A stretch of DNA of 64,000 bases from Aquabacterium sp. OR-4 (GTDB lineage Bacteria; Pseudomonadota; Gammaproteobacteria; Burkholderiales; Burkholderiaceae_C). The notes below the pieces were generated by a model. The model was given only the letters and a program-made list of their open reading frames with translations. It was not told where the DNA came from and did no database searches. The position numbers were made by a program, and so were the translations under genes. Each line of letters opens with the position of its first letter. Position 1 is the stretch's first letter. The DNA lies in assembly GCF_025290835.2 (NCBI RefSeq), contig NZ_JAOCQD020000002.1, forward strand, positions 248,001 to 312,000, given 5' to 3'. This document shows, piece after piece, positions 1 to 15,233 of the stretch.

Positions 1-532
1 TGGTGTGCGAGCGCGCATTGGCCACGTACAGCTTGCGGCCGTTGGGCGTGAGCACCACCGCGGCGGGCTCGGTGCCCACGCTGATCTCGCGCGGACGGCC
101 GATGCCGCCGTTGGCCAGGTTCAGCCGCAGCACCGAGACCGTGCCGCTCGCCGTGTTGGCCACATAGGCCTTGCTGCCGTCGGGCAGCAGGGCCACGCTG
201 CTGGGCTCCTGCCCCACCGGCACCTCGGCCAGCTTGCGGTGGCGGTCCTGGCGCAGATCGAACAGGCTCAGCGTGTGGTTGTCGGCATTGGCCACGGCCA
301 GGAAGGCGCCGTTGGCGCTGAGCGCCAGCGATTGCGACGCGGTGGGGCCGGCAAACCGCGCCAGCGGCGCCGGTGCGGCCTGGGCGGCATGGCGCTGGGC
401 GTCGGCCCTGCGCGCATCGCCGTGCGGCAGCGTGGGCAGCAGCACCGAGGCCATGGCGGCCACGCCGCTCAGCGTCAGCAGGCCGGGCAGGCGGGCCTGG
501 CCGCGCAGGCGGTGCAAGGTGAGGCGGCTCAT
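1..532 (-). CDS. YVTN-type beta-propeller protein (C-terminus outside the window)
   Basis: The gene reads leftwards and is cut by the window edge, so only about 177 N-terminal residues are visible. A hydrophobic stretch near residues 15-33 (LPGLLTLSGVAAMASVLL) looks like a signal or anchor segment. Then come repeating blades with the pattern SLALSANGAFLAVAN, SVALLPDGSKAYVAN and AVVLTPNGRKLYVAN, typical of YVTN/40-residue beta-propeller repeats in exported surface proteins. The ATG at 532-530 overlaps the stop of the upstream PEP-CTERM gene (ATGA), so the two are probably translated together. The blade type is recognised; the substrate or partner is not. The full length and a possible sorting tail cannot be seen. 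Confidence 0.8.
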   Translation of the reverse strand, partial: MSRLTLHRLRGQARLPGLLTLSGVAAMASVLLPTLPHGDARRADAQRHAAQAAPAPLARFAGPTASQSLALSANGAFLAVANADNHTLSLFDLRQDRHRKLAEVPVGQEPSSVALLPDGSKAYVANTASGTVSVLRLNLANGGIGRPREISVGTEPAAVVLTPNGRKLYVANARSHT

Positions 533-1143
533 GTGCGCTCTCCCCGGCGCGTGGGGTGGCGGCCGGCCAGGGCCGCGCCGCCGGCGGCCAGCAGCAGCAG
601 CGCCAGGCTGCCGGGTTCGGGTATGGCGTTGTTGCCGCGCTCGGCAATGTGCAGGTAGCCGCTGCTCAGCGCCTCGCCCTCCAGCTGGCGCAGCGTGATC
701 TCGTGCAGGCCCTCGGCCAGCTCGAACACCGCGCGGCTGATGCCCGGCGTGGCCAGGCAGACCACCGGATCGTCGCCACAGTCGGGTGTGGTGTTGACCA
801 GCACCTGCAGCGGCGAGCTGATGCCCAGCAGCTGGCCGCCGTCCAGGACCTCGAAACGCTCGAGGCCCAGGAAGGCATCGACGATGGTCAGTACGCCACC
901 CCCCGCGCCGAGCTGAAAGCGCCAGCCCGGCGCATCCAGCGCGATGCTGGGCGTGCCGCTGCTGGGCACGCAGAAGTTGCCCTGGTCGTCGGCGGGCGCG
1001 CAGCCCGCGGCGAACTGGCCCACGCCGTTGAGGCTGAACTGGGCATAGGTGTCAAACGGCACGGGGCCGGCCTGGGCGGATGGGGCCAGCCAGCCCAGCG
1101 CCAGCGCGGCGCCGGCCGCCAGCAGGCGACGGTGATCAGCCAT
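529..1143 (-). CDS. PEP-CTERM sorting domain protein
   Basis: A 204-residue exported protein. The N-terminus (MADHRRLLAAGAALALGWL, then APSAQA) is a signal peptide with a probable AQA cleavage site. The body has four Cys in two groups (CAPADDQGNFC and CGDDPVVC) that could form disulfides. The C-terminus is a classic PEP-CTERM signal: IPEPG, a hydrophobic run LALLLLAAGGAALAG, then a basic tail HPTRRGERT. Such proteins are sorted to the cell surface by exosortase; no exosortase lies in this window. The ATG at 1143 follows AAGGAG by 5 nt. It overlaps the downstream propeller gene by ATGA. A 21-nt inverted repeat lies about 30 nt upstream. The molecular role of the body is unknown. Confidence 0.88.
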   Translation of the reverse strand: MADHRRLLAAGAALALGWLAPSAQAGPVPFDTYAQFSLNGVGQFAAGCAPADDQGNFCVPSSGTPSIALDAPGWRFQLGAGGGVLTIVDAFLGLERFEVLDGGQLLGISSPLQVLVNTTPDCGDDPVVCLATPGISRAVFELAEGLHEITLRQLEGEALSSGYLHIAERGNNAIPEPGSLALLLLAAGGAALAGRHPTRRGERT

Positions 1144-1397: not shown

Positions 1398-3827
1398 CTA
1401 GTACGTCACCCGCGCCAACCAGGTCTGCTGTGCGGCGTCGCGGGCCTGGCCCAGGGTGTGGATGCCGCGCTCGGCCAGCAGTGGCACCAGCTTCAAAAAC
1501 ACCTCGGCCGTCACCAGCGCATCGCCCAGCGCGGTGTGGCGGCCCAGCACGGGGATGCCGAAACGCTCGGCAATGGCCTCGAGGCGGTGCGAGGCCTGCT
1601 GCGGGTGCACCAGGGCCGAGAGCAGCAGCGTGTCGAGCACCGGCTGCTCGAAGCGCAGGCCGGTGAGCCCTTCCTTGAGCTGAAGAAAGCGCATGTCGAA
1701 AGCGGCGTTGTGCGCCACCAGCACGGTGTCGGCGGCAAAGGCGTGAAAGGCCGGCAGCACCGCGGCAATGGTCGGCTGGCCGGCCACCATGGCCGGCGTG
1801 ATGCCGTGGATGGGCACGCCCTCGGGCGGGATCGGCCGCTGCGGATCGACCAGTTGCTCGAAGCTCTCCTGCCGCAGCAGCTTGCCGTTGACCACCCGGG
1901 TGGCGCCGATCTGGATGATCTCGTCGCCCTGCGCCGGGTTCAGGCCGGTGGTCTCGGTGTCGAACACGGTGTAGGTCAGCTCGGCCAGGCGGCGGTCGTT
2001 CAGCGCCTGGTCCAGCCCGTTCAGGCCGGCCTGGCGGAACAGGTCGAAGTCGTAGTACTCGGGCCGGCTGGCGTGCTGCGGCAGGCTGGCCGCACGCTGG
2101 CCCGGGCGCCCGGGGTCGGCTGGGGCCTCGGCGTCGGCCAGCGGCAGCAGAAAGCGGAAGAAGGCCTGGTGCCGCACCCGCTCGCGCTCGAACCAGAACT
2201 CGCCGCCATGGCGCTGCAGCACCTCGCGCACGGCCAGCGGGCTGGCCTGGCCGCCGATCGGCATCGGGTCGGTCTCCCAGCTCATCACGGTCTCGGTGCT
2301 CATGGCCTGGCCGGTCCAGATCAGGTCGAGGTGGGCGCGGCCCGGTGTCGGGGCCGGTGCCAGGCGCAGCTGCACCAGGCGGATGCCGTATTCGTCGGCC
2401 AGGCGGCCGGCCAGGTAGCACAGCGCCTGCAGCAGCCAGAAGCTGTCGACCTGCAGCCACAGGCCGCCATCCACCTCGGCCGGCGCGGCGCGCAGGCCCG
2501 GCTGCTGCAGACCGATGCGCTGCACCGCGGCGGCCACCAGGTCGGCGCCCAGCATGTCCTCCAGCGGCCAGCGGGTGCCGGCACCCCCACCGCCCTGCGC
2601 GGCCACGGCGTTCAGGCGCGCGCTCATGGCCTGGGCCTCGTCGCGCACCACGGCCAGAAAGCGCTCGCGCTGCGCGGGCTCGAGGTCGGGGTACTCCAGC
2701 ATCTCGGCGGCCGCCTGCAGATTGCCCAGCGCGGCACGGCTGCCTTCGGTGAGCTCGTGCAGCAGGCGGTCGCGCCCGGTCTCGTGGGCGAACTCGCGCG
2801 TCACGTTGGCCAGCATCAGCACAAAGCCGGCCAGGGCCGGCGCGCGGGCTGCTGGATCAGCGCCCGCCTCTCCCTCTTTGCCCCCCTCGCCCGCCTCGCC
2901 CCCCTCGCCCGCCTCGCTTTCCTCGCCCTGTTTCGCCTGGCAGCGCCCGTCCAGCGCGGCGGCCTCGGCCACCTGGCGCACCGGCGCCATCTGCACGCGC
3001 AGCAGCTGGCCGGCCGCGGTGGTGGTGAGAAAGTGCGCCGCAGGCTGGGCGTCGCCGCGGGCCAGCTGCTGGCCGATCTTCTCGAGCGCGTGGGCCACCA
3101 GCTGGCGCTCGAACACGGTGTAGATCGAGCGGCCCAGGCCGATCAACTCGGCGCCATCGGCCAGCGCCGGTGCCGCCGACAGGGCCCGGAACTGCGCCCG
3201 CGCGCTGCCGTTGTAAAGCAGCACCCGGCCATCGAGGTTGCACACCACCACGGCCTGGCTGAGCTCGGACATCAGCGCGGCCAGGCGGCTGCGCTCTTGC
3301 TCGATGCCGCGGCTGGCCTGGCGCACCTGGGCGGCGATGTCGGCCTGCAGCTGCTGGCGCTGGGCCACCAGCTGGTTCACGCCGGCGGCCAGCGCCTGCA
3401 GCGCCGGCGCGCCCTGCGGCGTGATCGGCGTGCCGGTATCGGTGCCCAGGCGCAGCTGCAGGGCCTCCAGCAACTGGCCTGCGGCCGCCGGCCAGGCCGC
3501 CAGCAGGCGCTTGAGCCCGCTCAGTACCGCCGCCACGCCCAGCAGCAGCGCCAGCAGCAGCAAGGCGGCGCGTGGCGCCAGCAAGGCGCCCAGCAGCGCG
3601 CCCAGCTGCGCCCGCTCGGGCGGGGCCAGCGTGGCCCACAGCAGGCCGGCGCTGGCCCCCAGCCACAGCAGCAGGCCGCCCAGCACCCAGGCGGCGGCAC
3701 CGGCCAGGGCCCGCAGCTCGCGCGCCTGCCGGCTCAGGCCGGCTGGGGGCGGGTGGGTGCTGGCGGCGGCGGCGACAGCGGCGGCGGCGACAGCGGGGCC
3801 GGGGCCAGGGCCGGGGCTGGCCGTCAT
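1398..3827 (-). CDS. Membrane PAS/pseudokinase fused to DEDDh 3'-5' exonuclease
   Basis: An 809-residue fusion. Two transmembrane helices lie near residues 40-66 and 75-108, followed by a PAS-like region, an acidic low-complexity repeat (EAGEGGEAGEGGKEGEAG) and a HisKA-like helix pair with LLHELTEG in place of the H-box. The ATPase-like part lacks the N-box Asn and the DxG box (IWTGQA instead), so it is probably a pseudokinase. The C-terminal 190 residues are a complete DnaQ/PolC-type exonuclease: D623-T-E625-TTG (Exo I), HNAAFD with D711 (Exo II) and H764-TALG-D769 (Exo III). The ATG overlaps the stop of the CheY-type gene (ATGA). It is the last gene of a coupled operon with a symporter-kinase. 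A hairpin CGGGACC-AG-GGTCCCG lies about 90 nt after the stop, without a U-tract. Whether the nuclease acts on DNA or RNA is unknown. Confidence 0.85.
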   Translation of the reverse strand: MTASPGPGPGPAVAAAAVAAAASTHPPPAGLSRQARELRALAGAAAWVLGGLLLWLGASAGLLWATLAPPERAQLGALLGALLAPRAALLLLALLLGVAAVLSGLKRLLAAWPAAAGQLLEALQLRLGTDTGTPITPQGAPALQALAAGVNQLVAQRQQLQADIAAQVRQASRGIEQERSRLAALMSELSQAVVVCNLDGRVLLYNGSARAQFRALSAAPALADGAELIGLGRSIYTVFERQLVAHALEKIGQQLARGDAQPAAHFLTTTAAGQLLRVQMAPVRQVAEAAALDGRCQAKQGEESEAGEGGEAGEGGKEGEAGADPAARAPALAGFVLMLANVTREFAHETGRDRLLHELTEGSRAALGNLQAAAEMLEYPDLEPAQRERFLAVVRDEAQAMSARLNAVAAQGGGGAGTRWPLEDMLGADLVAAAVQRIGLQQPGLRAAPAEVDGGLWLQVDSFWLLQALCYLAGRLADEYGIRLVQLRLAPAPTPGRAHLDLIWTGQAMSTETVMSWETDPMPIGGQASPLAVREVLQRHGGEFWFERERVRHQAFFRFLLPLADAEAPADPGRPGQRAASLPQHASRPEYYDFDLFRQAGLNGLDQALNDRRLAELTYTVFDTETTGLNPAQGDEIIQIGATRVVNGKLLRQESFEQLVDPQRPIPPEGVPIHGITPAMVAGQPTIAAVLPAFHAFAADTVLVAHNAAFDMRFLQLKEGLTGLRFEQPVLDTLLLSALVHPQQASHRLEAIAERFGIPVLGRHTALGDALVTAEVFLKLVPLLAERGIHTLGQARDAAQQTWLARVTY

Positions 3828-4198
3828 GCGGCCGGCTCCAGCAACTGGCGCAGGCGCTGCACCAGGGCCTTGGTGGCAAAGGGCTTGGTGAGGTAAGCGT
3901 CGGCGCCCAGCGCCAGGCCCTTGGCCACATCGGTGTCGCGGCCCTTGGCGGTGAGCAGCACGATGCGCAGGCCGGCCAGGCTGTCGTCGGCGCGCAGCTG
4001 CTGGCACACGTCCAGGCCGCTCAGGCGCGGCATCATCACGTCCAGCAGGGCCAGCGCCGGGCGCACCGCGCGCACGGCGTCGAGGGCCTCCTGGCCGTCG
4101 CGGGCCAGCGTCACCTCGAAGCCCTCGCGCTGGAGCAGGAACTCCAGCGAGACCAGGATGTTCGGCTCGTCGTCGGCGACCACGATGCGGGTGTTCAT
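3824..4198 (-). CDS. CheY-type single-domain response regulator
   Basis: A 124-residue receiver domain with no output domain. It has the acidic pair DD at residues 9-10, the phosphoacceptor D53 (LALLDVMMPR), the conserved Thr/Ala region (LLTAKG) and the Lys of YLTKPF. The ATG at 4198 overlaps the stop of the upstream kinase (ATGA), and its own stop overlaps the ATG of the exonuclease fusion, so it lies between a sensor kinase and a nuclease fusion in one coupled operon. It probably takes phosphate from the kinase. Its target is not evident; the downstream pseudokinase/exonuclease is an attractive but unproven partner. An in-frame start 36 nt upstream (4234) is possible but would sit deep inside the kinase gene. 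Confidence 0.9.
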   Translation of the reverse strand: MNTRIVVADDEPNILVSLEFLLQREGFEVTLARDGQEALDAVRAVRPALALLDVMMPRLSGLDVCQQLRADDSLAGLRIVLLTAKGRDTDVAKGLALGADAYLTKPFATKALVQRLRQLLEPAA

Positions 4199-7197
4199 GG
4201 CTTGTCTCCGGATGCGTTGTGGCTGTGCTGCCATGGCAGCGCGAAAGCAAAGCAGGCGCCTTGTGCTGCATCAGCCTCGAGCCACATGCGGCCGCCGAAG
4301 TGTTCGACGATCTGGCGGCTGATCGGCAGGCCCAGGCCGGTGCCGGCCGGGCGGTGCAAGGCGTCGCCGCCCTGGCGGAACTTCTCGAAGATCAGCGCGC
4401 GCTGGGCCACCGGCACGCCGGGGCCGTTGTCGTGCACGCGCACGGTGCAGCCGTCGGCATCGCAGTCCAGCATCACGCTGACGCAGCCGCCCACCGCCGG
4501 CGCAAACTTGGCGGCGTTGGACAGCAGGTTCATCAGCACCTGCATCAACCGGTCCTCGTCGGCCAGCAGCGTGGGCGCTGGCGCTGGTGCCGGTGCCGGC
4601 AGGTGCAGCCGCAGCTCGGCGCCGCGGGCGTGGAACATCTCGGCCGTGGTGTCCACCGCGCGCTGCAGCAGTGCCCGCAGGTCGATCGGCGTGCTGCGCC
4701 ATTCGGCATGGCCCGACTCGATCTTGGCCATGTCGAGCACCTGGTTCACCAGGCGCGACAGGCGTTCGGTCTCGGCCACCACGATGGCCAGAAACTGCTG
4801 GCGCTGGGCCGGCGCCATGTCGGGGTCGTCGTGCATCAGCTCCGACAGCGCGCGGATCGAGGTCAGCGGCGTGCGCAGCTCGTGGGTCACCGAGGACATG
4901 AAGTCGTCCTTCAGCCGGTCGAGCTCTTCCAGGCGCTCGTTGGCGGCGCGCAGCCCGTCGGTGGCGCGGCGCAGGGCCTGCTGCTGGGCCTCGAGCGCCT
5001 GGGCATGGCCACGCAGCTGCGAGGCCTCGTCCAGCATGCGCAGCACGTCGTCCATGGCCAGCGGCTCCTCGTCGACCACCGAGGCCACCATCACCCGGGC
5101 CGAGGCCGCGCCGATGGCGCCGCCCAGCTCGGTCTCGACCAGCTGCACCAGGCGCGCGTCGGGCACGATCTGCGCGGCATCGGCCAGGCCCTGGGCGCGT
5201 GCGTGGTCGTCAAACAGCTGTGCTGCCCGCGCGGCACCCACGAAACGCTGCGCCAGCGCACGCAGGTCAGCCAGCCGCGCGCGGCCGCGCCAGAACACCG
5301 GCGGCGAGGTGCCCGCGTCGGCCGCCGCCCTGCCAGGCAGCGCAGCGGCCGGCGCCCCGCGCTGGAACACGTCGACAAACAACAGCGCCTGCGCAGCCTC
5401 GCGTGGCGAGGGCCCGCGCCACAGCGACACACCGACATACAGCGCGGTGTTGACGCCCAGGCTCCACACCAGCGCATGGGTCAGGGGGTCGAGGCCCTGC
5501 AGGCCCAGCAGGCGCTCGGGCGCCAGCAGCGCCCAGCCCTCGGGGCCTTGCAGCAGCCAGTCGCCACGGCCCGGCGCCGCCAGCCAGCCCGAGCGCGCCA
5601 GCGAGGGCAGCATCAGCGTGTAGACCCACAGCGCAAAGCCGCCCAGCAGGCCGGCCAGCGCGCCCAGGCGGGTGCCGCCCTTCCAGTACAGGCCGCCCAG
5701 CAGGGCCGGCGCAAACTGCGCCACCGCAGCAAAGCTGATCAGGCCGATGCTCACCAGCGCATAGGCCTCGCCAGCCAGGCGAAAGTACAGGTAGCCCAGC
5801 AGCAGGATGGCGGCGATGCCGGCGCGGCGGATGCCCAGCAGCAGGCCGGTGAGATCGCCCGTCCCGGCGCGCCGCGTGCGGTGCAGCACACCGGTGCGCA
5901 GCAGCAGCGGCATCACCAGGTCGTTGCAGACCATGGTGGCCACCGCGATGGCCTCGACCATGACCATGCCGGTGGCCGCCGACAGCCCGCCGATGAAGGC
6001 CGCCAGTGCCAGCCCCGGCTGGCCGGCGGCCAGCGGCAGCGCGATCACGAAGCCATCGGCCTGCGCGGCGCCGCTGCCCGGCGCGGCCAGCAGCAGCCCG
6101 GCCAGCGCGATGGGCAGCACGAACAGGTTGATCAACAGCAGGTAGGCCGGAAAGGCCCAGCTGGCGCGCCGCAGGTGGCGCTCGTCGACGTTCTCGATCA
6201 CCATCACCTGAAACTGCCGCGGCAGGCACAGCAGCGACAGCATGGCCAGGGCCATCAGCGCCAGCCACTGGTCCCAGGCAAAGCGGCCATCGGCGCTGCC
6301 CGCGCCCAGCGTGAGCAGGCGGGCCAGCTCGGGCCGCGACTGGGCCTGCGCCAGCAGCGCGCCCGGCCCGTCAAACAGGCCCCAGGTGACATAGGCCCCC
6401 ACCGCCATGAACGCCAGCAGCTTGACCACCGATTCGGCGGCAATCGCCGCCACCAGGCCTTCATGGCGCTCCTGGCGCTGCAGCCGCTCGGCCAGGCCCG
6501 CGGCACCGCCCGCCGCACTGCCACCCGCACCAGCCCCGCCACCGGGCCGGCGGGTGCCGAAGACCATCGTGAACAAGGCCATCGCCAGCGCGATGGCCAA
6601 GGTGCTGTCGCGCCACCAGGGCCAGGCTGCGGCCGGCGGCGCGCCGGGCGGCTGGGTGAGCAGCGCATAGCCCACCGCAATGGCTTTGAGCTGCAGCGCG
6701 ATGTAGGGCACGATGCCCACCACGGTGATCAGCGTCACCAGGCCGGCCAGCAGCTGGCTCTTGCCGTAGCGGCTGCCGATGAAGTCGGCGATCGAGGTGA
6801 TGCGCTGCTGGCGCGTGATGCGCACCAGCTTGCGCACCACCAGCCAGGCCAGCATCATGCCCAGCGTGGGCCCCAGGTAGATCGGCAGGAACCACAGGCC
6901 ACCCGTGGCCGCGCGGCCCACGCTGCCGAAATACGTCCAGGCGGTGCAGTAGACGGCCAGCGACAGCGCATACACCCAGGCCCGCCCGATCACCGAGCGC
7001 CCGGCCGCGGCCCGCCGCTCGGCCCACCAGGCCACGCCGAACAAGGCTGCCAGATAGGCCAGCGCCGCCAGCACCACGGTGCTGGCGGCCAGCACCGGCA
7101 CGGCAGCTGGCACAGTGGCCAGCACAGGGGCCGGCACAGCGGTCATCGCAGCGGCCGGCACGGCGGCCAGTGCCAGGGCCATCAGGGCCTGGCTCAC
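4195..7197 (-). CDS. Sodium/solute symporter-histidine kinase fusion (CrbS/CbrA-like)
   Basis: A protein of about 1000 residues. The N-terminal 600 residues hold roughly 13 transmembrane helices of the SSS (SLC5) family, with motifs such as YCTAWTYFGSVGRA. A helical linker (QALEAQQQALRRATDG...LDRLKDDF) leads to a HisKA domain with H772 in SSVTHELRTPL, then an ATPase domain with N-box NLLSNAAKFAP, G1 DNGPGVP, F-box FEKFRQ and G2 GTGLGLPIS. This is the layout of CrbS/CbrA sensors, which link solute sensing or transport to transcription. Divergence from the DUF485-actP operon suggests acetate as the signal. The GTG start at 7197 overlaps the stop of the small membrane protein gene (GTGA); an ATG at 7182 is the alternative. 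Its stop overlaps the response regulator start. Confidence 0.92.
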   Translation of the reverse strand: MSQALMALALAAVPAAAMTAVPAPVLATVPAAVPVLAASTVVLAALAYLAALFGVAWWAERRAAAGRSVIGRAWVYALSLAVYCTAWTYFGSVGRAATGGLWFLPIYLGPTLGMMLAWLVVRKLVRITRQQRITSIADFIGSRYGKSQLLAGLVTLITVVGIVPYIALQLKAIAVGYALLTQPPGAPPAAAWPWWRDSTLAIALAMALFTMVFGTRRPGGGAGAGGSAAGGAAGLAERLQRQERHEGLVAAIAAESVVKLLAFMAVGAYVTWGLFDGPGALLAQAQSRPELARLLTLGAGSADGRFAWDQWLALMALAMLSLLCLPRQFQVMVIENVDERHLRRASWAFPAYLLLINLFVLPIALAGLLLAAPGSGAAQADGFVIALPLAAGQPGLALAAFIGGLSAATGMVMVEAIAVATMVCNDLVMPLLLRTGVLHRTRRAGTGDLTGLLLGIRRAGIAAILLLGYLYFRLAGEAYALVSIGLISFAAVAQFAPALLGGLYWKGGTRLGALAGLLGGFALWVYTLMLPSLARSGWLAAPGRGDWLLQGPEGWALLAPERLLGLQGLDPLTHALVWSLGVNTALYVGVSLWRGPSPREAAQALLFVDVFQRGAPAAALPGRAAADAGTSPPVFWRGRARLADLRALAQRFVGAARAAQLFDDHARAQGLADAAQIVPDARLVQLVETELGGAIGAASARVMVASVVDEEPLAMDDVLRMLDEASQLRGHAQALEAQQQALRRATDGLRAANERLEELDRLKDDFMSSVTHELRTPLTSIRALSELMHDDPDMAPAQRQQFLAIVVAETERLSRLVNQVLDMAKIESGHAEWRSTPIDLRALLQRAVDTTAEMFHARGAELRLHLPAPAPAPAPTLLADEDRLMQVLMNLLSNAAKFAPAVGGCVSVMLDCDADGCTVRVHDNGPGVPVAQRALIFEKFRQGGDALHRPAGTGLGLPISRQIVEHFGGRMWLEADAAQGACFAFALPWQHSHNASGDKP

Positions 7198-7412
7198 GGG
7201 CCGGCGTCGGCCGGCGTCTCGCCGTGCTCGAGCACCCAGGCCACGGCGGCGATCAGGCCCGCCCACACGGCAAACAGCGCCAGCGGCAGCAGCGGCAGGC
7301 CGCTGGCGCCCAGCGGCTGATCCCACAGCGCCAGCAGCGGCCAGCCCAGCAGCAGCCAGCCGGCACCGAACCAGGCCAGCAGGCGCTGCACCGTGAGGCT
7401 CTTGCTGTTCAC
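7194..7412 (-). CDS. Small two-helix membrane protein leading the symporter-kinase operon
   Basis: A 72-residue protein starting with GTG at 7412 (VNSKSLTVQRLLAWFGAG), preceded by GGGAG 9 nt upstream. It has two hydrophobic segments, about residues 10-30 (LLAWFGAGWLLLGWPLLAL) and 40-60 (LPLLPLALFAVWAGLIAAVAW), and a short polar tail. Its stop overlaps the GTG start of the kinase. I recall small two-TM proteins ahead of such kinases in related bacteria, which suggests an accessory subunit of the sensor, as DUF485 proteins are for ActP. No domain was recognised. Confidence 0.7.
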   Translation of the reverse strand: MNSKSLTVQRLLAWFGAGWLLLGWPLLALWDQPLGASGLPLLPLALFAVWAGLIAAVAWVLEHGETPADAGP

Positions 7413-7767
7413 CTGCGTGGGCTCCCGGTGGGTGATCGGTGGGTGACCCCGGTGGTGGGCCGATAGACGGGCGGCGGATGCCCGCTGCGGTGGCAAACGG
7501 CCGCTGGCCGCGCGCCTGCCGCCGGTCTGCAGCGGCCTGCACACGCCAGGATTGTGGTGCTGCGCCTGACCCACGGCTGACGTCTTGCCAAACCCTGATC
7601 TGGCTCAAACACGGCACTAGTGCAAACCCTTGGTTTCATGGCAGGGTCAGTTCATGGTCAGGCATGCGCCGCAGACTTTGTCCCATCCCAGCCTTGTGCA
7701 GACCTGCCAGCAGATGGACGTTCGTCTAGCCTGTTAGCTCGGCGTGCACACCCGACAGGAGAATGTG
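7413..7767. other. Divergent intergenic region between the kinase operon and DUF485-actP
   Basis: About 355 nt without a convincing gene. It must hold the promoters for both divergent operons. Visible elements are a perfect palindrome at 7614-7623, a direct repeat TTCATGG at 7635 and 7651 (16 nt apart), and a small inverted repeat GACG-TT-CGTC near 7717. No clear -35/-10 pair or sigma-54 site could be assigned. Confidence 0.5.
7614..7623. promoter_or_regulatory. Palindrome GCACTAGTGC, possible operator
   Basis: A perfect 10-bp palindrome, GCACTAGTGC, near the middle of the region shared by the symporter-kinase operon and the DUF485-actP operon. The position suits a dimeric regulator controlling both. 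No known regulator was matched to it; the call rests on symmetry and position only. Confidence 0.3.
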
Positions 7768-8076
7768 ATGAGCAATGACGTGGTCGCCCGCATCCGGGCC
7801 AATCCCAAGTACCAGGAGCTGCGCCGCAAGCGCAACAGCTTCGGCTGGTGGCTGACGCTGCTGATGATGCTGGTGTACTACGGCTACATCGCACTGATCG
7901 CCTGGAACAAGGAGTTCCTGTCGCAGCCGCTGGGCAGCGGTGTCACCACCCTGGGCATCCCCATCGGCATGGGCGTGATCATCTTCACCATCGTCATCAC
8001 CGGCCTGTATGTGCGCCGCGCCAACAACGAGTTCGACGCGCTCACCCGCGACGTGCTCGCCAAGGAGGTGAAGTGA
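7768..8076 (+). CDS. DUF485 membrane protein, ActP partner (YjcH-like)
   Basis: A 102-residue protein beginning [19 protein letters not shown], with AGGAG 7 nt before the ATG. It contains the DUF485 core: two transmembrane helices ([20 protein letters not shown] and [20 protein letters not shown]) separated by a short loop, and a polar end [22 protein letters not shown]485 proteins are almost always encoded directly upstream of ActP-type acetate/glycolate symporters (yjcH-actP in Escherichia coli). The stop codon overlaps the actP start by one base (TGATG), supporting a shared transcript and complex. Confidence 0.93.
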
Positions 8077-9890
8077 TGTCGCGCCCCCTGCAAACCGCCG
8101 CGGCGCTGCTGGCGCTGCTGGCACTCGGCGCGGCCCATGCCGCCGGTGGCGACGTGGGCCAGGCCGCCAAGCAGAGCACCAACTGGACGGCCATCGGCAT
8201 GTTCGGCGTGTTCGTGATGGGCACGCTGTGGATCACCAAGTGGGCCGCGGCCAAGACCAAGAGCGCGGCTGACTTCTACACCGCCGGCGGCGGCATCACC
8301 GGCTTCCAGAACGGCCTGGCGATCGCCGGCGACTACATGTCGGCGGCCTCGTTCCTGGGCATCTCGGCAGCGGTGATGGCCTCGGGCTACGACGGCCTGA
8401 TCTACTCCATCGGCTTCCTGGTGGGCTGGCCGGTGATCACCTTCCTGATGGCCGAACGGCTGCGCAACCTGGGCAAGTTCACCTTTGCCGACGTGGCCGG
8501 CTACCGCTTCAAGCAGGGCCCGATCCGCGCCTTCGCGGCCAGCGGCACGCTGGTGGTGGTGGCCTTCTACCTGATTGCGCAGATGGTCGGCGCGGGCCAG
8601 CTGATCAAGCTGCTGTTCGGGCTGGACTACTGGCTGGCGGTGGTGATCGTTGGCGCGCTGATGATGGTCTACGTGCTGTTCGGCGGCATGACGGCCACCA
8701 CCTGGGTGCAGATCATCAAGGCCGTGCTGCTGCTCACCGGCGTGAGCTTCATGGCCTTCATGGTGCTGGCGCAGTTCGGCTTCTCGCCCGAGGCGCTGTT
8801 TGCCGCCGGCGTGAAGGTCAAGGCCACCATCGCCGCCAATGGCAAGGAGGCGGCCATGGCCGCGGCCACGGCGGCCACCGCCGCGGCGGCCACGCCCGAG
8901 CTGGCGGCCAGCGCCGCAGCCGCCATGGCCAAGGCCAGCGCCATCAACCCCGAGAAGGTGGGCCTGTCGCTGATGAACCCGGGCGGCTTCGTCAAGGACC
9001 CGATCAGTGCCATCAGCTTCGGCATGGCGCTGATGTTCGGCACCGCCGGCCTGCCGCACATCCTGATGCGCTTTTTCACCGTGCCCGATGCCAAGGAGGC
9101 ACGCAAGAGCGTGTTCTGGGCCACCACCTGGATCGGCTACTTCTATGTGCTGATCTTCATCATCGGCTTCGGTGCCATCACGCTGGTGCTGACCAACCCC
9201 GAGTTCGCCGACGTGGCCAAGGGCGTGATCAAGGGCGGTGCCGGCACGGCCAACATGGCCGCGGTGCTGGTGGCCAAGAGCGTGGGCGGCGACGTGTTTT
9301 TCGGCTTCATCTCGGCGGTGGCCTTCGCCACCATCCTGGCGGTGGTGGCCGGCCTCACGCTGAGCGGTGCCTCGGCCGTGTCGCACGACCTGTACGCCAC
9401 GGTGTTCAAGGGCGGCAAGGCCGACAGCGCGGCCGAGCTGCGGGTCTCGCGTGCCACCACGCTGGCACTCGGTGTCATCGCGGTGGCCCTGGGCATCACC
9501 TTCGAGAAGCAGAACATCGCCTTCATGGTGAGCCTGGCCTTCGCCATTGCCGCGTCGGCCAACTTCCCGGTGCTGTTCATGAGCGTGCTGTGGAAGGACT
9601 GCACCACCCGCGGCGCGGTGATCGGCGGTTTCCTGGGCCTGATCTCGTCGGTGGGCCTGACCATCGTGTCGCCGTCGGTGTGGGAGGCCACGCTGGGCAA
9701 CCCCAAGGGCTCGGCCTGGTTCCCGTACACCTCGCCGGCCCTGTTCTCGATGACCATCGGCTTCGCCAGCATCTGGCTGTTCTCGATCCTCGACCGCAGC
9801 GCCCAGGCGCAGCAGGAGCGGGTGGACTTCGAGGCCCAGCAGGTGCGCTCGGAAACCGGCCTCGGCGCCGCCGGCGCATCGGGTCACTGA
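8076..9890 (+). CDS. actP: Cation/acetate symporter ActP
   Basis: A 604-residue SSS-family symporter with an N-terminal signal-like helix ([12 protein letters not shown]) and about 13 further membrane segments. Family features include [20 protein letters not shown] and the SAASFLG motif of acetate permeases. It imports acetate and similar short carboxylates with Na+ or H+. It is longer than the 549-residue E. coli protein, partly because of an Ala-rich periplasmic or cytoplasmic insertion ([19 protein letters not shown], about residues 255-290). AAGGAGGTG precedes the ATG. It is cotranscribed with the DUF485 gene and divergent from the CrbS-like kinase, so regulation by that kinase is likely. 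Four terminator hairpins follow. Confidence 0.93.
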
Positions 9891-9910
9891 ACCGGCCTGC
9901 CCTGCCCCTC

Positions 9911-10025
9911 AGCCCGGCCCTGGCCGGACTCTTCACTTGCAGCCCGGCCCTGGCCGGGCTCTTCACTTGCAGCCCGGCCTCGGCCGGGCTTTTCACGCGC
10001 AGCCCGGCCCTGGCCGGGCTTTTTC
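9911..10025 (+). terminator. Four tandem copies of a 30-bp intrinsic terminator after actP
   Basis: The unit AGCCCGGCCCTGGCCGGGCT followed by CTTCACTTGC is repeated at 9911, 9941, 9971 and 10001. Each copy folds into a stem AGCCCGGC/GCCGGGCT with a four-base loop. The stem is imperfect in copy 1 (GGACT) and has a CT/CG change in copy 3. The last copy ends in TTTTTC and is the best Rho-independent terminator; copies 1 and 2 have CTTC instead. The array separates actP from feoA. The 30-bp period points to duplication of a single terminator. Confidence 0.85.
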
Positions 10026-10132: not shown

Positions 10133-10390
10133 ATGAGCCGCACTGCACCCGCCGCCACGCTGGCCGACCTGCCCGATGGCCGCGCCGCCACGGTGCACGG
10201 TGTCGACGACGAGGGCGGCACCCTGGACACCCTGCAGCTGCGCCGCCTGCGTGAACTGGGCTTTCTGCCCGGCGAGCCGGTGAAGGTGCTGCGCCGCGGC
10301 CCGGGTGGCCGCGAGCCGCTGGCGGTGCAGGTGGGCGACACGCTGTTTGCCCTGCGTCTGGCCGAGGCACGCTGCGTGCTGGTGGACTGA
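10133..10390 (+). CDS. feoA: Ferrous iron transport protein A (FeoA)
   Basis: An 85-residue SH3-like FeoA protein. Typical features are the early LADLPDGRAATV, the central LRRLRELGFLPGEPVKVLRRGPGG and the final PLAVQVGDTLFALRLAEA. FeoA is a small cytosolic partner of the FeoB Fe2+ transporter. GGAG lies 11 nt before the ATG. The stop codon is immediately followed by the feoB ATG, with no gap. A Fur box lies directly upstream, so expression should rise under iron limitation. Confidence 0.94.
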   Translation: MSRTAPAATLADLPDGRAATVHGVDDEGGTLDTLQLRRLRELGFLPGEPVKVLRRGPGGREPLAVQVGDTLFALRLAEARCVLVD

Positions 10391-12283
10391 ATGTCCCAGG
10401 CTGCTTCCGTCTCCGACCGCCTGCCACAGAGCGTGGCCCTGGTCGGCAACCCCAACTGCGGCAAGACCGCGCTGTTCAACCTGCTCACCGGCGCGCGCCA
10501 GAAGGTGGCCAACTACGCCGGCGTGACGGTCGAGCGCAAGATCGGCCAGGCCCGCCTGGCCGATGGCCGCCAGGTGCAGGTGATCGACCTGCCCGGTGCC
10601 TACAGCCTGACCCCCGCCACACCCGACGAGCAGGTGACGCTCGAGGTCATCGAGGGCCGCCGCCCCGGCGAGCGCCAGCCCGATGCGGTGGTGGCCGTGG
10701 TCGATGCCACCAACCTGCGCATGAACCTGCGCCTGGTGCTCGAGCTGCAGCGCCTGGGCCGGCCGATGATGGTGGCGCTGAACATGGCCGACGTGGCCCG
10801 CGCCCGCGGCCTGCAGATCGATACCGCCGCCCTGTCGCTGGCGCTGGGCTGCCCGGTGGTCGAGACCGTGGCGGTGCGCCGCAACGGCCATGCCGAACTG
10901 CTGAGCCGGCTGCAGGCCTGGCGCCTGCCCCAGGCTGCCGATGCCGCACCGGTGCATGCCGCGGCGGCCGATCCGGCGGCACTGATGGCACGGGTGCGCG
11001 AGATCCTGGCCCAGGCCGTGCACAGCGCACCGGGCACCCACACGGCCGACCGGCTGCAGCTCACGCTCGACCGCTGGGTGTTGCACCCGGTGTGGGGCCT
11101 GGCCATCCTGGCCGCGGTGCTGTTCGTGGTGTTCCAGGCGGTGTTTGCCTGGGCCGCCGCGCCAATGGACCTGATCGAGGCCGGCATGGCCGCGCTGGGC
11201 GACTGGCTGGGCGCCAACATGGCCGACGGCCCGCTGCGCAGCCTGCTGGTGGACGGCGCCATTGCCGGCGCCGGCGCGGTGCTGGTGTTCCTGCCGCAGA
11301 TCCTGATCCTGTTCTTCTTCATCCTGGTGCTCGAGGATTCGGGCTACCTGCCGCGCGCCGCCTTCCTGCTCGACAACGCGATGGGCAAGGTGGGCCTGTC
11401 GGGGCGGGCCTTCATCCCGCTGCTGTCGAGCTTTGCCTGTGCGGTGCCCGGCATCCTGGCCACGCGCACCATCGCGCACTGGAAAGACCGCCTGGCCACC
11501 ATCATGGTGGCGCCGCTGATGACCTGCTCGGCCCGCCTGCCGGTGTATGCGCTGCTGATCGGCGCCTTCATCCCCGAGCAGTCGGTGGGCCCTTTCAACC
11601 TGCAGGGCCTGGTGCTGTTTGCGCTGTACCTGGCCGGCGTGGCCTCGGCCTGCCTGGTGGCCTGGATCTTCAAGCGCGTGTGGCTGCGCAGCAGCTACCA
11701 GCCGCTGATGCTGGAACTGCCGCCCTACCGCTGGCCCGGCCTGCGCAACCTGGGCCTGGGCCTGTGGGAGCGCGCGCGCATCTTCATCGAGCGGGTGGGC
11801 ACGATCATCTTCGCGCTGTCGGTGCTGCTGTGGTTCCTGTCCACCCATCCGGCGCCGCCCGAGGCTGCGGGCGCCACGCTGCCGGCCATCCAGTACAGCT
11901 TTGCCGGCCAGCTGGGCCGCGCGCTGGAGCATGTGTTCGCGCCGGTCGGCTTCAACTGGCAGATCTGCATTGCGCTGGTGCCCGGCATGGCCGCGCGCGA
12001 GGTGGCGGTGGGTGCCCTCGGCACGGTGTATGCGCTGTCGGCCAGCGACGATGCGGTGGCCGAGGCCCTGGCGCCGATGATCGCCGCGCAATGGTCGCTG
12101 GCCACCTCGCTGGCGCTGATGGCCTGGTTCGTGTTTGCGCCGCAGTGCATTGCCACGCTGGCCACCGTGAAGCGCGAGACCAATGGCTGGCGCTGGCCGC
12201 TGGTCATGACCGGCTACCTGTTCGGCCTGGCCTATCTGGCGGCCTTCGTCACCTACCGCGCCACGCTGTGGCTGGGTGGCTGA
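10391..12283 (+). CDS. feoB: Ferrous iron transporter FeoB
   Basis: A 630-residue protein with an N-terminal GTPase domain: G1 GNPNCGKT (residues 19-26), G2 region NYAGVTVE, G3 DLPG, and NMAD as G4. A helical domain and then about eight or more membrane helices follow, including Gate regions with conserved Cys (SSFACAVPGILATRT, MTCSARLPVY). It is shorter than the 773-residue E. coli FeoB, as is common in betaproteobacteria, and lacks the C-terminal FeoC-binding extension. It moves Fe2+ across the inner membrane. It is translated directly after feoA and followed by a small DUF6587-type gene. Confidence 0.95.
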   Translation: MSQAASVSDRLPQSVALVGNPNCGKTALFNLLTGARQKVANYAGVTVERKIGQARLADGRQVQVIDLPGAYSLTPATPDEQVTLEVIEGRRPGERQPDAVVAVVDATNLRMNLRLVLELQRLGRPMMVALNMADVARARGLQIDTAALSLALGCPVVETVAVRRNGHAELLSRLQAWRLPQAADAAPVHAAAADPAALMARVREILAQAVHSAPGTHTADRLQLTLDRWVLHPVWGLAILAAVLFVVFQAVFAWAAAPMDLIEAGMAALGDWLGANMADGPLRSLLVDGAIAGAGAVLVFLPQILILFFFILVLEDSGYLPRAAFLLDNAMGKVGLSGRAFIPLLSSFACAVPGILATRTIAHWKDRLATIMVAPLMTCSARLPVYALLIGAFIPEQSVGPFNLQGLVLFALYLAGVASACLVAWIFKRVWLRSSYQPLMLELPPYRWPGLRNLGLGLWERARIFIERVGTIIFALSVLLWFLSTHPAPPEAAGATLPAIQYSFAGQLGRALEHVFAPVGFNWQICIALVPGMAAREVAVGALGTVYALSASDDAVAEALAPMIAAQWSLATSLALMAWFVFAPQCIATLATVKRETNGWRWPLVMTGYLFGLAYLAAFVTYRATLWLGG

Positions 12284-12630: not shown

Positions 12631-13242
12631 TCAACCCCGCTGCAGCCGGTGGCGCAGCACCACGAAGGCCAGGCCGGCCAGCACCGCGGCATCCAGCGGC
12701 GTGGCTGAGTCGCGCTCAGGCAGGCCCAGCGCCTGCTGCAGGCTGGCCCAGCGCAGGTCGATGGTCACCGCGCCCTGCTGCTGGTAGGGCGGCAGCTGGC
12801 GAAACTTCCAGTCGTGGAACATCGCCGACACATCGTGGCGCGCATTCGGCAGGCCCACGCCCAGCAGCGGCTGCAGCGCACGGTCCAGCAGCGCCAGGTC
12901 GAAGTCGAGGTAGTAGCCCACCAGCGGCCGCGGGCCGATGAAGTGCAGCAGCCCGGCCATGGCCGCGCGCTCGGCGGCGTCGCCCACTCCGGCGCCGTCG
13001 AGCAGCGAGACCTCCAGGCGCTGGCTGGCCAACACCCGGTCGCCCTGCCCACGCACCGCGGCCAGCGCCAGCAGGCGGTCGCGGTTGGCGTCGCGGCCGC
13101 TGGCCAGCACATCCAGCGCCACCCATTCGCCGGCGGGTGGCGGCTGCCACAAAAAGGCCCATTGCGGATCGGCCAGCTGGCGCTGCGACCATTCGCGCTT
13201 GATGGCCGCCCAGCCACCGCCGGCGCCGCCCAGGCGCGGCAT
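12631..13242 (-). CDS. DEDD exonuclease-like protein with degenerate active site
   Basis: A 203-residue protein of the DnaQ-like (DEDDh) fold. The Exo I motif, normally DxExTG, reads D44-V-L46-ASG, so the second acidic residue is lost. Exo II is kept as YYLDFDLALLDR (D115). In Exo III the His five residues before D184 (LDAAVLAGLAF) is Ser179. Two of the catalytic residues are therefore missing and the protein is probably inactive or uses another mechanism. Its ATG overlaps the stop of the upstream cNMP/CBS/DUF294 gene (TGATG), a pairing I recall from other proteobacteria, where the exonuclease-like protein is annotated as a Pol III epsilon homologue. A structural or nucleotide-binding role is possible. 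Confidence 0.8.
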   Translation of the reverse strand: MPRLGGAGGGWAAIKREWSQRQLADPQWAFLWQPPPAGEWVALDVLASGRDANRDRLLALAAVRGQGDRVLASQRLEVSLLDGAGVGDAAERAAMAGLLHFIGPRPLVGYYLDFDLALLDRALQPLLGVGLPNARHDVSAMFHDWKFRQLPPYQQQGAVTIDLRWASLQQALGLPERDSATPLDAAVLAGLAFVVLRHRLQRG

Positions 13243-15233
13243 CACAGCGCATCCAGGTGAAAGCGCAGGCGCAGCAACTGCTTGAAGCGCTTGACCACCG
13301 CCAGCGTGTCCTTCAGAAGATCGCGGTCCAGGCTGGACAGGCGGTCGACCTCGATGCCGCCGCCAGGCGCCTGGCCGGCCTCCAGCGCCGCCAGGCCCAG
13401 CTTCAGCTTCAGACCCATGAAAAAGTGCAGGCTGTCCACCAGATCGGTGGCCAGGCCCTGCTCCAGCGCGCCGGCGGCCACCAGCGCCTCGAGGCGCGCC
13501 ACCGTGCCGGTGGCCTGCACCCGGTGCGCCAGTGCCAGGCTGCGCACGCCATGCACCAGCGGAAAGCTGCCGGCCTTCTTCAGATCGAGCAGGCCCGGCC
13601 CATCTTCCAGCGAGAACAGCCGCGACCACCAGCCGCCACCGCCCTCGAAGGCATTGATCGCCGCGGCAAAACGCGCCAGCAGCGCGTCGTTGTCGGTGAC
13701 CAGGTTGAAGACCTCGCCGCGCACCTGGGCCAGCAGCGTGGCATCGCCCGCCACCGCGTGGGCATCGAGAAAAATCGCCAGCGACATCAGGCTGTCGGGC
13801 GACGGCATCAGCAGCCAGCGCCGCACGCGCTCGCCGAAATCGGCCGCCTCGTGCCGCCACTCGGGGTTGCTGAGCATGATCTGGCCCGGGCATTCGGGGT
13901 AGCCAAAATCGGCCAGCGCCTGTGAAAACCGCTGGCAGATGGCGGCCAGATCGGCCGGCGGCGTGTAGCCGTCGCGCAGGATCAGGCCGTTGTCCTGGTC
14001 GGTCTTGAGCAGCTGCTCGCCGCGGCCCTCGCTGCCCATCACGAACAGGCAGCTGTTGGCCACCAGGGCCGGCGGCGCCATCAGCTGCCAGGCGCGCTCG
14101 AACAGCAGCGCATTGAGTTCCTGCACCAGGCGCGCGATCAGGCCCACCTTGGTGCCGCCGCGCTGCAGCAGGCCGATCACCTGGGTGATCTGGGCGGCCG
14201 GCGCGGCCAGCGCGGCCAGCTCGGTGGCTTCGAGGATCTGCCGCGTCACCAGCGTGCTGTGGTTCGACAGGAAGCCCAGCAGGTCCACCTGCTCCAGCAC
14301 GCCCAGAATGGGCCCGCCGGGCGCCTGGCGGCCGGCCTGGCCAGGGCCGGCGGGAGCACGCACCACCACGCGCTGCACGCGGTGGCGGATCATCACCGCC
14401 AGCGCCTCGAACAGCGGCGCGTCGGGCGCCACGCACACCAGGGGATGGCTGGCCAGATCGCCCACCGGCAACTGATCGAGCGGCCGGCCATGCAGGATGG
14501 CGCGCTGCAGCCCGGCGGTGGTGAAGATGCCCAGATGCTGCGTGCCATCGGCCGCCGCACTGGCGTTGGCCGGGCCGTCAGCAGGGGCCGTGACCACGCC
14601 ATCGGCCACGCCACCGGCCGTGGCGTCGGCCGGGCCGTCGGCACGCTTGGCGCCCGGGGCCGCCACCCCCACGCCGCGCACCAGCACATGCGTGACCCGC
14701 TGCCCGACGAACAACCGCACCACCGACACGATGTCGAGCGCGGCGTCCACATACTGCGGCGGGCGCAGCACCGCCTGATCCACCCGCGCCAGGGTCAGGC
14801 TCTGCAGCTCATGCTGGCGGTGGTGGGCCGACAGCGCGGCCAGCTTCTTCGACAAATCGGCAAACAGCAGCGCCGCGAAGGTGGCGTTGTGCGTGATCAG
14901 CGTGTTCACCGTGTCGCGCGGCAGCCGGTAGGCCAGCACCTCGCTGGCGGCCACGAAGCGGTGGCTGGCCACGCCGGTGACCAGCGCCCGGCCATCGAAG
15001 CAGTCGTCGGGGCCGTAGGTGGCCACCAGGTCGTCGCCCTCCCACTGCCGCACATGGCCCTGGATCAGCACCACCAGGTGCTCGGGCGAGGCGCCGGCCG
15101 CCAGCATCACCTGGTCGGGTGGCACGAACTCGATGTCGACGCTGTCGCGCACCAGGCGGCGCTGCTCGGCGCTCAGGCAGTCGAAGGGCGAGACGTTGAA
15201 GTTGAAGGCGTGGGGCACGGCGGGCGCAGGCAA
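13242..15233 (-). CDS. cNMP-binding/CBS/DUF294 nucleotidyltransferase-like protein
   Basis: A 663-residue regulatory protein with a cyclic-nucleotide-binding-like domain (residues 15-135), a CBS pair (155-325) interrupted by a low-complexity insert with repeated ADGPA units (193-231), and a DUF294 nucleotidyltransferase-like domain. The latter carries the signature GSEGRGEQLLKTDQDN at 400-415, as in PII uridylyltransferase-type enzymes. A C-terminal helical DUF294_C domain follows. The only upstream start codon in frame is TTG at 15233 (LPAPAVPHAFNFN); a GTG five codons further in is the alternative. It overlaps the exonuclease-like gene. Family members occur near acetate-switch kinases. The substrate is unknown. 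Confidence 0.85.
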   Translation of the reverse strand: MPAPAVPHAFNFNVSPFDCLSAEQRRLVRDSVDIEFVPPDQVMLAAGASPEHLVVLIQGHVRQWEGDDLVATYGPDDCFDGRALVTGVASHRFVAASEVLAYRLPRDTVNTLITHNATFAALLFADLSKKLAALSAHHRQHELQSLTLARVDQAVLRPPQYVDAALDIVSVVRLFVGQRVTHVLVRGVGVAAPGAKRADGPADATAGGVADGVVTAPADGPANASAAADGTQHLGIFTTAGLQRAILHGRPLDQLPVGDLASHPLVCVAPDAPLFEALAVMIRHRVQRVVVRAPAGPGQAGRQAPGGPILGVLEQVDLLGFLSNHSTLVTRQILEATELAALAAPAAQITQVIGLLQRGGTKVGLIARLVQELNALLFERAWQLMAPPALVANSCLFVMGSEGRGEQLLKTDQDNGLILRDGYTPPADLAAICQRFSQALADFGYPECPGQIMLSNPEWRHEAADFGERVRRWLLMPSPDSLMSLAIFLDAHAVAGDATLLAQVRGEVFNLVTDNDALLARFAAAINAFEGGGGWWSRLFSLEDGPGLLDLKKAGSFPLVHGVRSLALAHRVQATGTVARLEALVAAGALEQGLATDLVDSLHFFMGLKLKLGLAALEAGQAPGGGIEVDRLSSLDRDLLKDTLAVVKRFKQLLRLRFHLDAL

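Follow-up and report, generated by a model that had tools for sequence, protein, structure and literature searches.

A conserved proteobacterial gene set of a transporter-like kinase, a lone receiver and a pseudokinase-exonuclease, frequently located close to a putative nucleotidyltransferase

Histidine kinases that combine an SLC5-like transporter domain with a STAC domain are known from the CrbS/CrbR (MxtR/ErdR) system of Pseudomonas, in which ActP is a target, as is, directly, the first gene of an operon encoding a CBS-domain protein and an RNase_T exonuclease (PMC8402216, PMC5715377 and PMC9927547). In P. putida, these two proteins, PP_0354 (CBS) and PP_0353 (RNase_T), are encoded in one operon; growth on pyruvate, but not on acetate, is poor in the PP_0353 mutant, and a role of PP_0353 in mRNA decay was suggested by the authors (PMC9927547). 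ErdR binds the promoter region of PP_0354 (PMC8402216), and Pflu5625 of P. fluorescens, which has cAMP-binding, CBS and nucleotidyltransferase domains, was predicted to act by nucleotidylation (PMC5715377). Here we describe a four-gene operon of Aquabacterium sp. OR-4 (Gammaproteobacteria, Burkholderiales), which lies in a 64,000-nucleotide stretch of contig NZ_JAOCQD020000002.1 (assembly GCF_025290835.2, positions 248,001 to 312,000, forward strand), hereafter the window, and encodes an SLC5/STAC kinase of this kind. Compared to CrbS/CrbR, which has a hybrid kinase, a LuxR-type activator and a stand-alone exonuclease under transcriptional control, this operon has a receiver without output domain, and its exonuclease is fused to a membrane pseudokinase inside the kinase operon itself.

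The operon consists of the following genes (window coordinates):
7194..7412, minus strand: two-transmembrane (two-TM) protein of 72 amino acids with a GTG start (open reading frame and hydropathy)
4195..7197, minus strand: SLC5-STAC-HisKA-HATPase kinase of 1000 amino acids (Pfam, profile comparison)
3824..4198, minus strand: stand-alone receiver of 124 amino acids without output domain (Pfam, alignment)
1398..3827, minus strand: fusion protein of 809 amino acids, with two TM helices, a PAS region, a pseudo-histidine-kinase core and a DEDDh exonuclease

The stops and starts overlap by GTGA at 7197-7194, ATGA at 4198-4195 and ATGA at 3827-3824, so that the layout, sizes and coupling given in the original prediction, which had been made from the window sequence, all stand. 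A consensus scan for promoters and terminators in 7300-7800 found none.

The neighbourhood on which the original prediction depended is conserved. A scan of species genomes found at least 467 loci encoding some relative of the fusion, of which the best 80 were kept, from Burkholderiales, Rhodocyclales, Colwellia, Thiofilum, Wenzhouxiangella and others; the denominators of the next three counts are those of the 80 with enough upstream DNA. In 73 of 77 loci, a receiver gene is found no more than 1 kb upstream of the fusion, a kinase gene in 70 of 75, and all four genes, a relative of the two-TM protein included, stand together in 57 of 66. In 50 of 73 loci, the receiver stop overlaps a fusion start codon that is in frame and open. 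In a divergent fusion subfamily (33-38% identity), the same genes are found in another order, receiver-fusion-(TM2)-kinase, in 6 of 12 loci. An origin of the fusion as a chance or one-off gene was rejected, as the best 80 of the at least 467 loci match along most of its length; moreover, 118 of the 120 listed homologues of fusion residues 1-600 also carry RNase_T. Left out of the fusion counts were one locus with a broken frame (L109, 60 amino acids) and those of the window's own genome (L006/L127). A VC_2705-family symporter occurs nearby in both of the other scanned lineages (L066 and L064). Altogether, the gene set is real and conserved, a two-component variant assembled from known parts.

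The window kinase is an SLC5/STAC kinase, in which an SLC5-like transporter domain is followed by a STAC four-helix domain. Its HisKA (65 bits) and HATPase_c (92 bits) domains were found by Pfam, with the phospho-acceptor His772, the N-box, DNG and GTGLGL all present, and both domains occur in 36 of 36 members. L065, whose reference contained a stop, L101, L110 and L114 were left out of the kinase alignment. The Pfam SSF family matched only 7 of the 36, the window kinase (P0002) not among them. The transporter part was instead recognized by profile comparison, in which positions 5-625 match residues 8-590 of chain 10ed_A with an E-value of 1.3e-98 (2e-62 for the single sequence). We take this chain to be CbrA of Pseudomonas, because the paper on CbrA (PMC13022988) contains the code 10ED. 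Lys259 of the window kinase aligns with the Na2-site Lys196 of CbrA, the sole site compared for ligand. Similar to CbrA, which is bound by the two-TM peptide CbrX (PMC13022988), the window kinase has a small two-TM gene just upstream, and the likeness to CbrX holds for position, size and the two TM segments that were originally described for this first gene (hydropathy peaks at 11-29 and 39-57 of 72 residues). However, CbrA has a PAS domain and binds histidine, according to the same paper, whereas a Pfam search of the window kinase found neither PAS nor Response_reg.

Scored with the profile of the SLC5-STAC part (A5), the kinase class lies nearer a hybrid class that we call CrbS-like (545-766 bits) than a CbrA-like class (about 400 bits), both names being inferred from domain layout. 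The CrbS-like class is mostly 1150-1340 amino acids long, and all three members scanned (686-747 bits) contain both PAS and a receiver; the CbrA-like class had no receiver in 2 of 2. CbrB, the partner of CbrA, is of the NtrC type. The earlier label of a CrbS-like symporter-kinase is thus right in the kinase family and in the nearer score, but the window kinase has no receiver of its own and no LuxR-type DNA-binding regulator.

The third protein is a stand-alone receiver, as first read: Pfam matched Response_reg with 96 bits, and there is no DNA-binding domain in its 124 residues. The phospho-acceptor is Asp53, and the acidic pocket is intact, D9, D10, D53, K105 and T/S83 each being present in 95 of 95 aligned rows. 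Its best 120 homologues are 122-143 amino acids long.

Beyond its two TM segments, which are read from hydropathy and from predicted-structure helices at residues 33-66 and 69-111, the fusion protein has three parts:
2976..3266, minus strand: PAS-like region, residues 188-284 (sub-threshold Pfam, structure model, relative L138)
2130..2825, minus strand: pseudokinase core, residues 335-566 (profile comparison, predicted structure)
1410..2015, minus strand: DEDDh exonuclease domain, residues 605-806 (Pfam, alignment, predicted structure)

The PAS region falls below the Pfam cut-off (PAS_4, 19.2 of 23.1 bits) but is strongly conserved among relatives, and the divergent relative L138 passes it (PF00989, 30.5 bits vs 22.6); the TM and PAS-like parts that had been proposed both stand. 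The core consists of DHp helices 342-377 and 384-412 and a CA-like segment 423-563. Despite the absence of any Pfam match to this core, profile comparison aligns it along its entire length with the kinase encoded next to it (208 columns, probability 97.9, E-value 4.5e-13). Foldseek matched the predicted structure to WalK- and VicK-type kinases, with TM-scores that are low because several domains were aligned at once; as the VIA structure list was filled by the exonuclease domain, the assignment of the pseudokinase fold is based on Foldseek and sequence. The lack of the N-box Asn and the DxG box, part of the original prediction, is borne out, and GxGxG and the phospho-acceptor His are absent as well, the latter replaced by Glu361. 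No phospho-acceptor His was found in any of 112 distinct relatives (114 rows, as L078/L013 and L084/L128 are identical pairs), whereas Arg364, at position +3, is kept in 111 of 112. The fusion thus has a histidine-kinase fold without phospho-acceptor His and, judged from these motifs, cannot be a kinase.

By contrast, the C-terminus of the fusion is a complete DEDDh domain, predicted to be a 3'-5' exonuclease. RNase_T was matched with 126 bits at residues 621-777, and the catalytic residues D623, E625, D711, H764 and D769, correctly noted as complete in the initial reading, are kept in 91 of 91 aligned relatives and in 109 of 112 distinct ones, the three exceptions belonging to one genus. The best folds in VIA are PolC, DinG, epsilon and ExoX nucleases, and database entries, where they carry a name, are labelled "DNA polymerase III epsilon" or "3'-5' exonuclease". 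Nevertheless, the fusion differs from DnaQ/PolC-type proofreading exonucleases in context and architecture, and the latter, together with a dnaQ_proteo score of 108.5 against a cut-off of 222.7 bits, rules out the housekeeping proofreading subunit DnaQ. A known anti-phage system was also rejected, since the PADLOC matches of the fusion were confined to its DEDDh domain, the receiver had a weak SduA match and the kinase and the DUF294 protein described below had none.

The receiver and the pseudokinase together resemble the DivK-DivL pair of Caulobacter, in which a stand-alone receiver works with a PAS-containing pseudo-histidine-kinase that has lost its His and kept the Arg at +3 (PMC4211667). 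In DivL, this residue is R553, and the R553A substitution weakens the binding of phosphorylated DivK (PMC4211667). DivL signals towards CckA-CtrA, whereas the fusion pseudokinase bears its own enzyme and its docking with the receiver is inferred.

The gene most closely tied to the exonuclease, absent from the original prediction, is DUF294, a GlnD-type nucleotidyltransferase. It lies in the window beside a second exonuclease-like gene:
13242..15233, minus strand: DUF294 protein with cNMP_binding, CBS, DUF294 nucleotidyltransferase (GS...DQD motif) and DUF294_C domains
12631..13242, minus strand: degenerate exonuclease-like protein of 203 amino acids, catalytic residues lost, coupled to DUF294 by TGATG

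DUF294_C has been placed in one group with domains from the C-terminus of GlnD/E-like nucleotidyltransferases (PMC3710099). The usual companion of DUF294 is a DEDDh protein, of another fold than the HD domain of GlnD. In the window, 9.4 kb separate the fusion from DUF294, which is directly coupled to the damaged DEDDh copy, and in many relatives the fusion adjoins DUF294 or stands in line with it. DUF294 was found in 54 of 80 fusion loci and at most 7 kb away in 37 of the 49 with 5 kb on both sides. On one strand, the order is DUF485-ActP-DUF294-TM2-kinase-receiver-fusion in L313 and DUF294-TM2-kinase-receiver-fusion in L220, L223 and L224. L314, in which no fusion was found, has a receiver in direct overlap with DUF294. 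Moreover, DEDDh, CBS, DUF294 and DUF294_C are encoded in one open reading frame (ORF) in L279, L280 and L281 (2018-4192, 528-2687 and 2228-4324). The same layout occurs in L290, with a degenerate first domain.

The distribution of the exonuclease in a sample of the class points the same way. Among 106 genomes with DUF294, 19 have the fusion and 87 have no known fusion; a DEDDh exonuclease stands beside DUF294 in 6 of the 19 but in 82 of the 87 (Fisher test, 1.1e-8; the pairs of G098, at 230.2 against a score limit of 230, and G148, concerning the same-strand rule, were added by hand). Of the 102 stand-alone copies, with one overlapping locus (G248) possibly counted twice, catalytic residues are altered in 4 of 8 from fusion genomes vs 1 of 94 elsewhere. 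Meanwhile, the exonuclease domain of the fusion is intact in each of the 19 fusion genomes with DUF294, and the three fusion genomes without DUF294, of one genus, are the three with a dead one. In a tree sampling every second stand-alone exonuclease, the fusion DEDDh domains form one group (99/89), which includes one exonuclease beside DUF294 in G148 and joins four DUF294-linked exonucleases (94/96, just under the tool's star); the DUF294-linked and fusion domains are set apart from other RNase_T proteins of the relatives at only 85/76. Judging by this distribution, the DUF294-linked exonuclease seems to be present in fusion genomes in the shape of the fusion. As two separate observations, 60 of the 102 stand-alone exonucleases beside DUF294 (L150-L291) carry a consistent variant in which Glu replaces the third Asp, and in one genome of the dead-exonuclease genus (L306, 4707-8743) an ImuB-like (IMS) gene is followed by a weak receiver and then the fusion.

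Given that DUF294 is the closest-tied gene, the substrate of the exonuclease may be a nucleotidylated protein or an RNA end, and the fact that these residues were lost in the genomes without DUF294, albeit in a single event, points to the product of DUF294. Nucleic acid processing, which the original prediction gave as the output, therefore becomes one candidate among others. As to the solute, for which acetate or a similar one had been suggested, the P. putida PP_0353 mutant was impaired on pyruvate and not on acetate (PMC9927547).

We propose, with a probability of about one half, that these genes form a membrane signalling module whose output is enzymatic rather than transcriptional, leading from kinase to phosphorylated receiver, pseudokinase and an exonuclease that works with DUF294. 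As the intact motifs and the families suggest, the SLC5-STAC kinase and its two-TM partner would sense or transport a solute, probably a monocarboxylate, and the kinase would phosphorylate the stand-alone receiver. By analogy with DivK and DivL, and in view of the conserved Arg364, the phosphorylated receiver may dock on the fusion pseudokinase; this docking would then act jointly with the PAS and membrane parts to switch the activity or the access of the DEDDh exonuclease. The genomic association of exonuclease and DUF294 is observed, and the two may also be partners biochemically; in most genomes without the fusion, the stand-alone DEDDh protein beside DUF294 would take the exonuclease role. 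The arrangement hints that the direct target of a nutrient signal may be an enzyme rather than a gene.

The co-occurrence of fusion and kinase class, a check attached to the original prediction, is seen in the sample: the class, at a limit of 860 bits chosen after the scores were seen, is present in 15 of 22 fusion genomes vs 5 of 348 others (Fisher test, 1.3e-17), and 15 of the 20 genomes at 865 bits or more in the A5 profile have the fusion. Several points weigh against the proposed module, some of them concerning these very counts. All association counts, those on DUF294 included, ignore relatedness among genomes, and six of the 35 rows of A5, plus the window, come from sampled genomes and raise the scores of these genomes. 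The fusion was found at an E-value of 1e-20 in 21 of 370 genomes, 22 with G355, in which it has all five catalytic residues; as the search missed at least this genome, absences are not certain. The kinase class at 860 bits is lacking in 7 of the 22, of which G062 has a 764-bit kinase beside the fusion, G086, G119, G209, G229 and G298 have CbrA-like scores only and G377 has no match. In addition, no DUF294 was found near the fusion in 12 of the 49 well-flanked loci, and the genomes with the dead domain, being of one genus, count as one event. Mutual information between receiver and pseudokinase (95 rows) was uninformative; its receiver-kinase positive control missed the known interface, so that nothing follows from it on docking. 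Finally, the P. putida PP_0354 mutant lacks the pyruvate defect of the PP_0353 mutant (PMC9927547).

This last finding bears on an alternative that we consider rather unlikely, namely that the fusion is a membrane-bound RNase or DNase trimming carbon-metabolism transcripts when the sensor fires, with DUF294 merely a co-regulated neighbour. The differing phenotypes of the two mutants agree with it, as do the mRNA decay proposed for PP_0353, the retention of all catalytic residues and the nuclease folds matched by the domain. It leaves unexplained, however, the ORFs that join DEDDh to DUF294, the receiver that overlaps DUF294 and the loss of catalysis where DUF294 is missing. At the far end of the range, the exonuclease domain might serve mainly for binding or as a scaffold, with catalysis secondary; three fusions of one genus have lost the catalytic residues while keeping the rest, and the stand-alone copy in the window is also dead, yet the retention of all five residues in nearly every distinct relative makes this very improbable.

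A further alternative concerns the receiver, which might act elsewhere, as a phosphate sink or on another target, while the fusion responds to a PAS and membrane signal of its own and the genes share carbon-source control. Consistent with it, the fusion lies beside DUF485-ActP with no kinase or receiver nearby in L088, L091, L092, L295, L297, L299 and L311, so that it may work without an adjacent receiver, a further point against the module; L078 joins L088, L091 and L092 in having no receiver upstream, and the conserved PAS region fits as well. Against it, the divergent subfamily keeps the same genes when reordered, receiver and fusion frequently overlap in frame and Arg364 is retained, on which grounds we think it unlikely. 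In the genomes of L295, L297 and L299, a further fusion is accompanied by kinase and receiver, and G099, G217 and G375 have two fusions each, one beside DUF485-ActP and the other with receiver and kinase.

Within the proposed module, a more specific and doubtful possibility is that a single nucleotide modification, carried by a protein, a carrier or an RNA end, is written by DUF294 and erased by the DEDDh protein. The removing activity of GlnD resides in an HD domain; here, the DEDDh domain would replace it, the eraser being fused to the pseudokinase, and the transporter-kinase would erase the mark through the phosphorylated receiver with transcription unchanged. The absence of a pyruvate defect in the PP_0354 mutant (PMC9927547) is of no help to this idea. 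In a literature search, with subscription journals mostly outside it, neither the fusion nor its operon nor the fusion-DUF294 link turned up in any paper, and nothing was found by the name DUF294 on the DUF294-exonuclease pair, which is known in P. putida by locus names.

The operon and DUF294 are separated by genes for transport:
7744..8076, plus strand: DUF485 protein, small ActP partner, divergent from the kinase operon (Pfam)
8076..9890, plus strand: cation/acetate symporter ActP (NF006903, 918 bits, cut-off 750)
10133-12283, plus strand: feoA-feoB iron transport genes, between actP and DUF294

ActP does not reach the cut-off of the equivalog TIGR02711 (781 of 1099). Between actP and feoA, a GC-rich palindromic unit of 30 bp is repeated in 3.7 tandem copies (9910-10020, plus strand). 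Just downstream of the operon, a reading frame (529-1143, minus strand) ends with IPEPGSLALLLLAAGGAALAGR..., which we take to resemble a PEP-CTERM sorting signal. Two large frames adjoining DUF294 (15316-17187 and 17269-19521, both minus strand) presumably carry GGDEF-like and receiver-GGDEF-EAL-like motifs.

Because of DUF294, the gene set is more informative than the original prediction supposed. It hints at a widespread and apparently unstudied output route of two-component systems, from a stand-alone receiver to a pseudokinase with a built-in enzyme, and proteins that are frequently annotated as DNA polymerase III epsilon turn out to have the architecture of a signalling protein. Moreover, DUF294 provides a concrete candidate partner for the exonuclease that was found, but not explained, in studies of the CrbS/R regulon. 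If DUF294 and the exonuclease do write and erase one mark, the sensing of carbon sources would be linked to a reversible modification that is new, and the module would be a two-component system with reversible nucleotidylation as its direct output.

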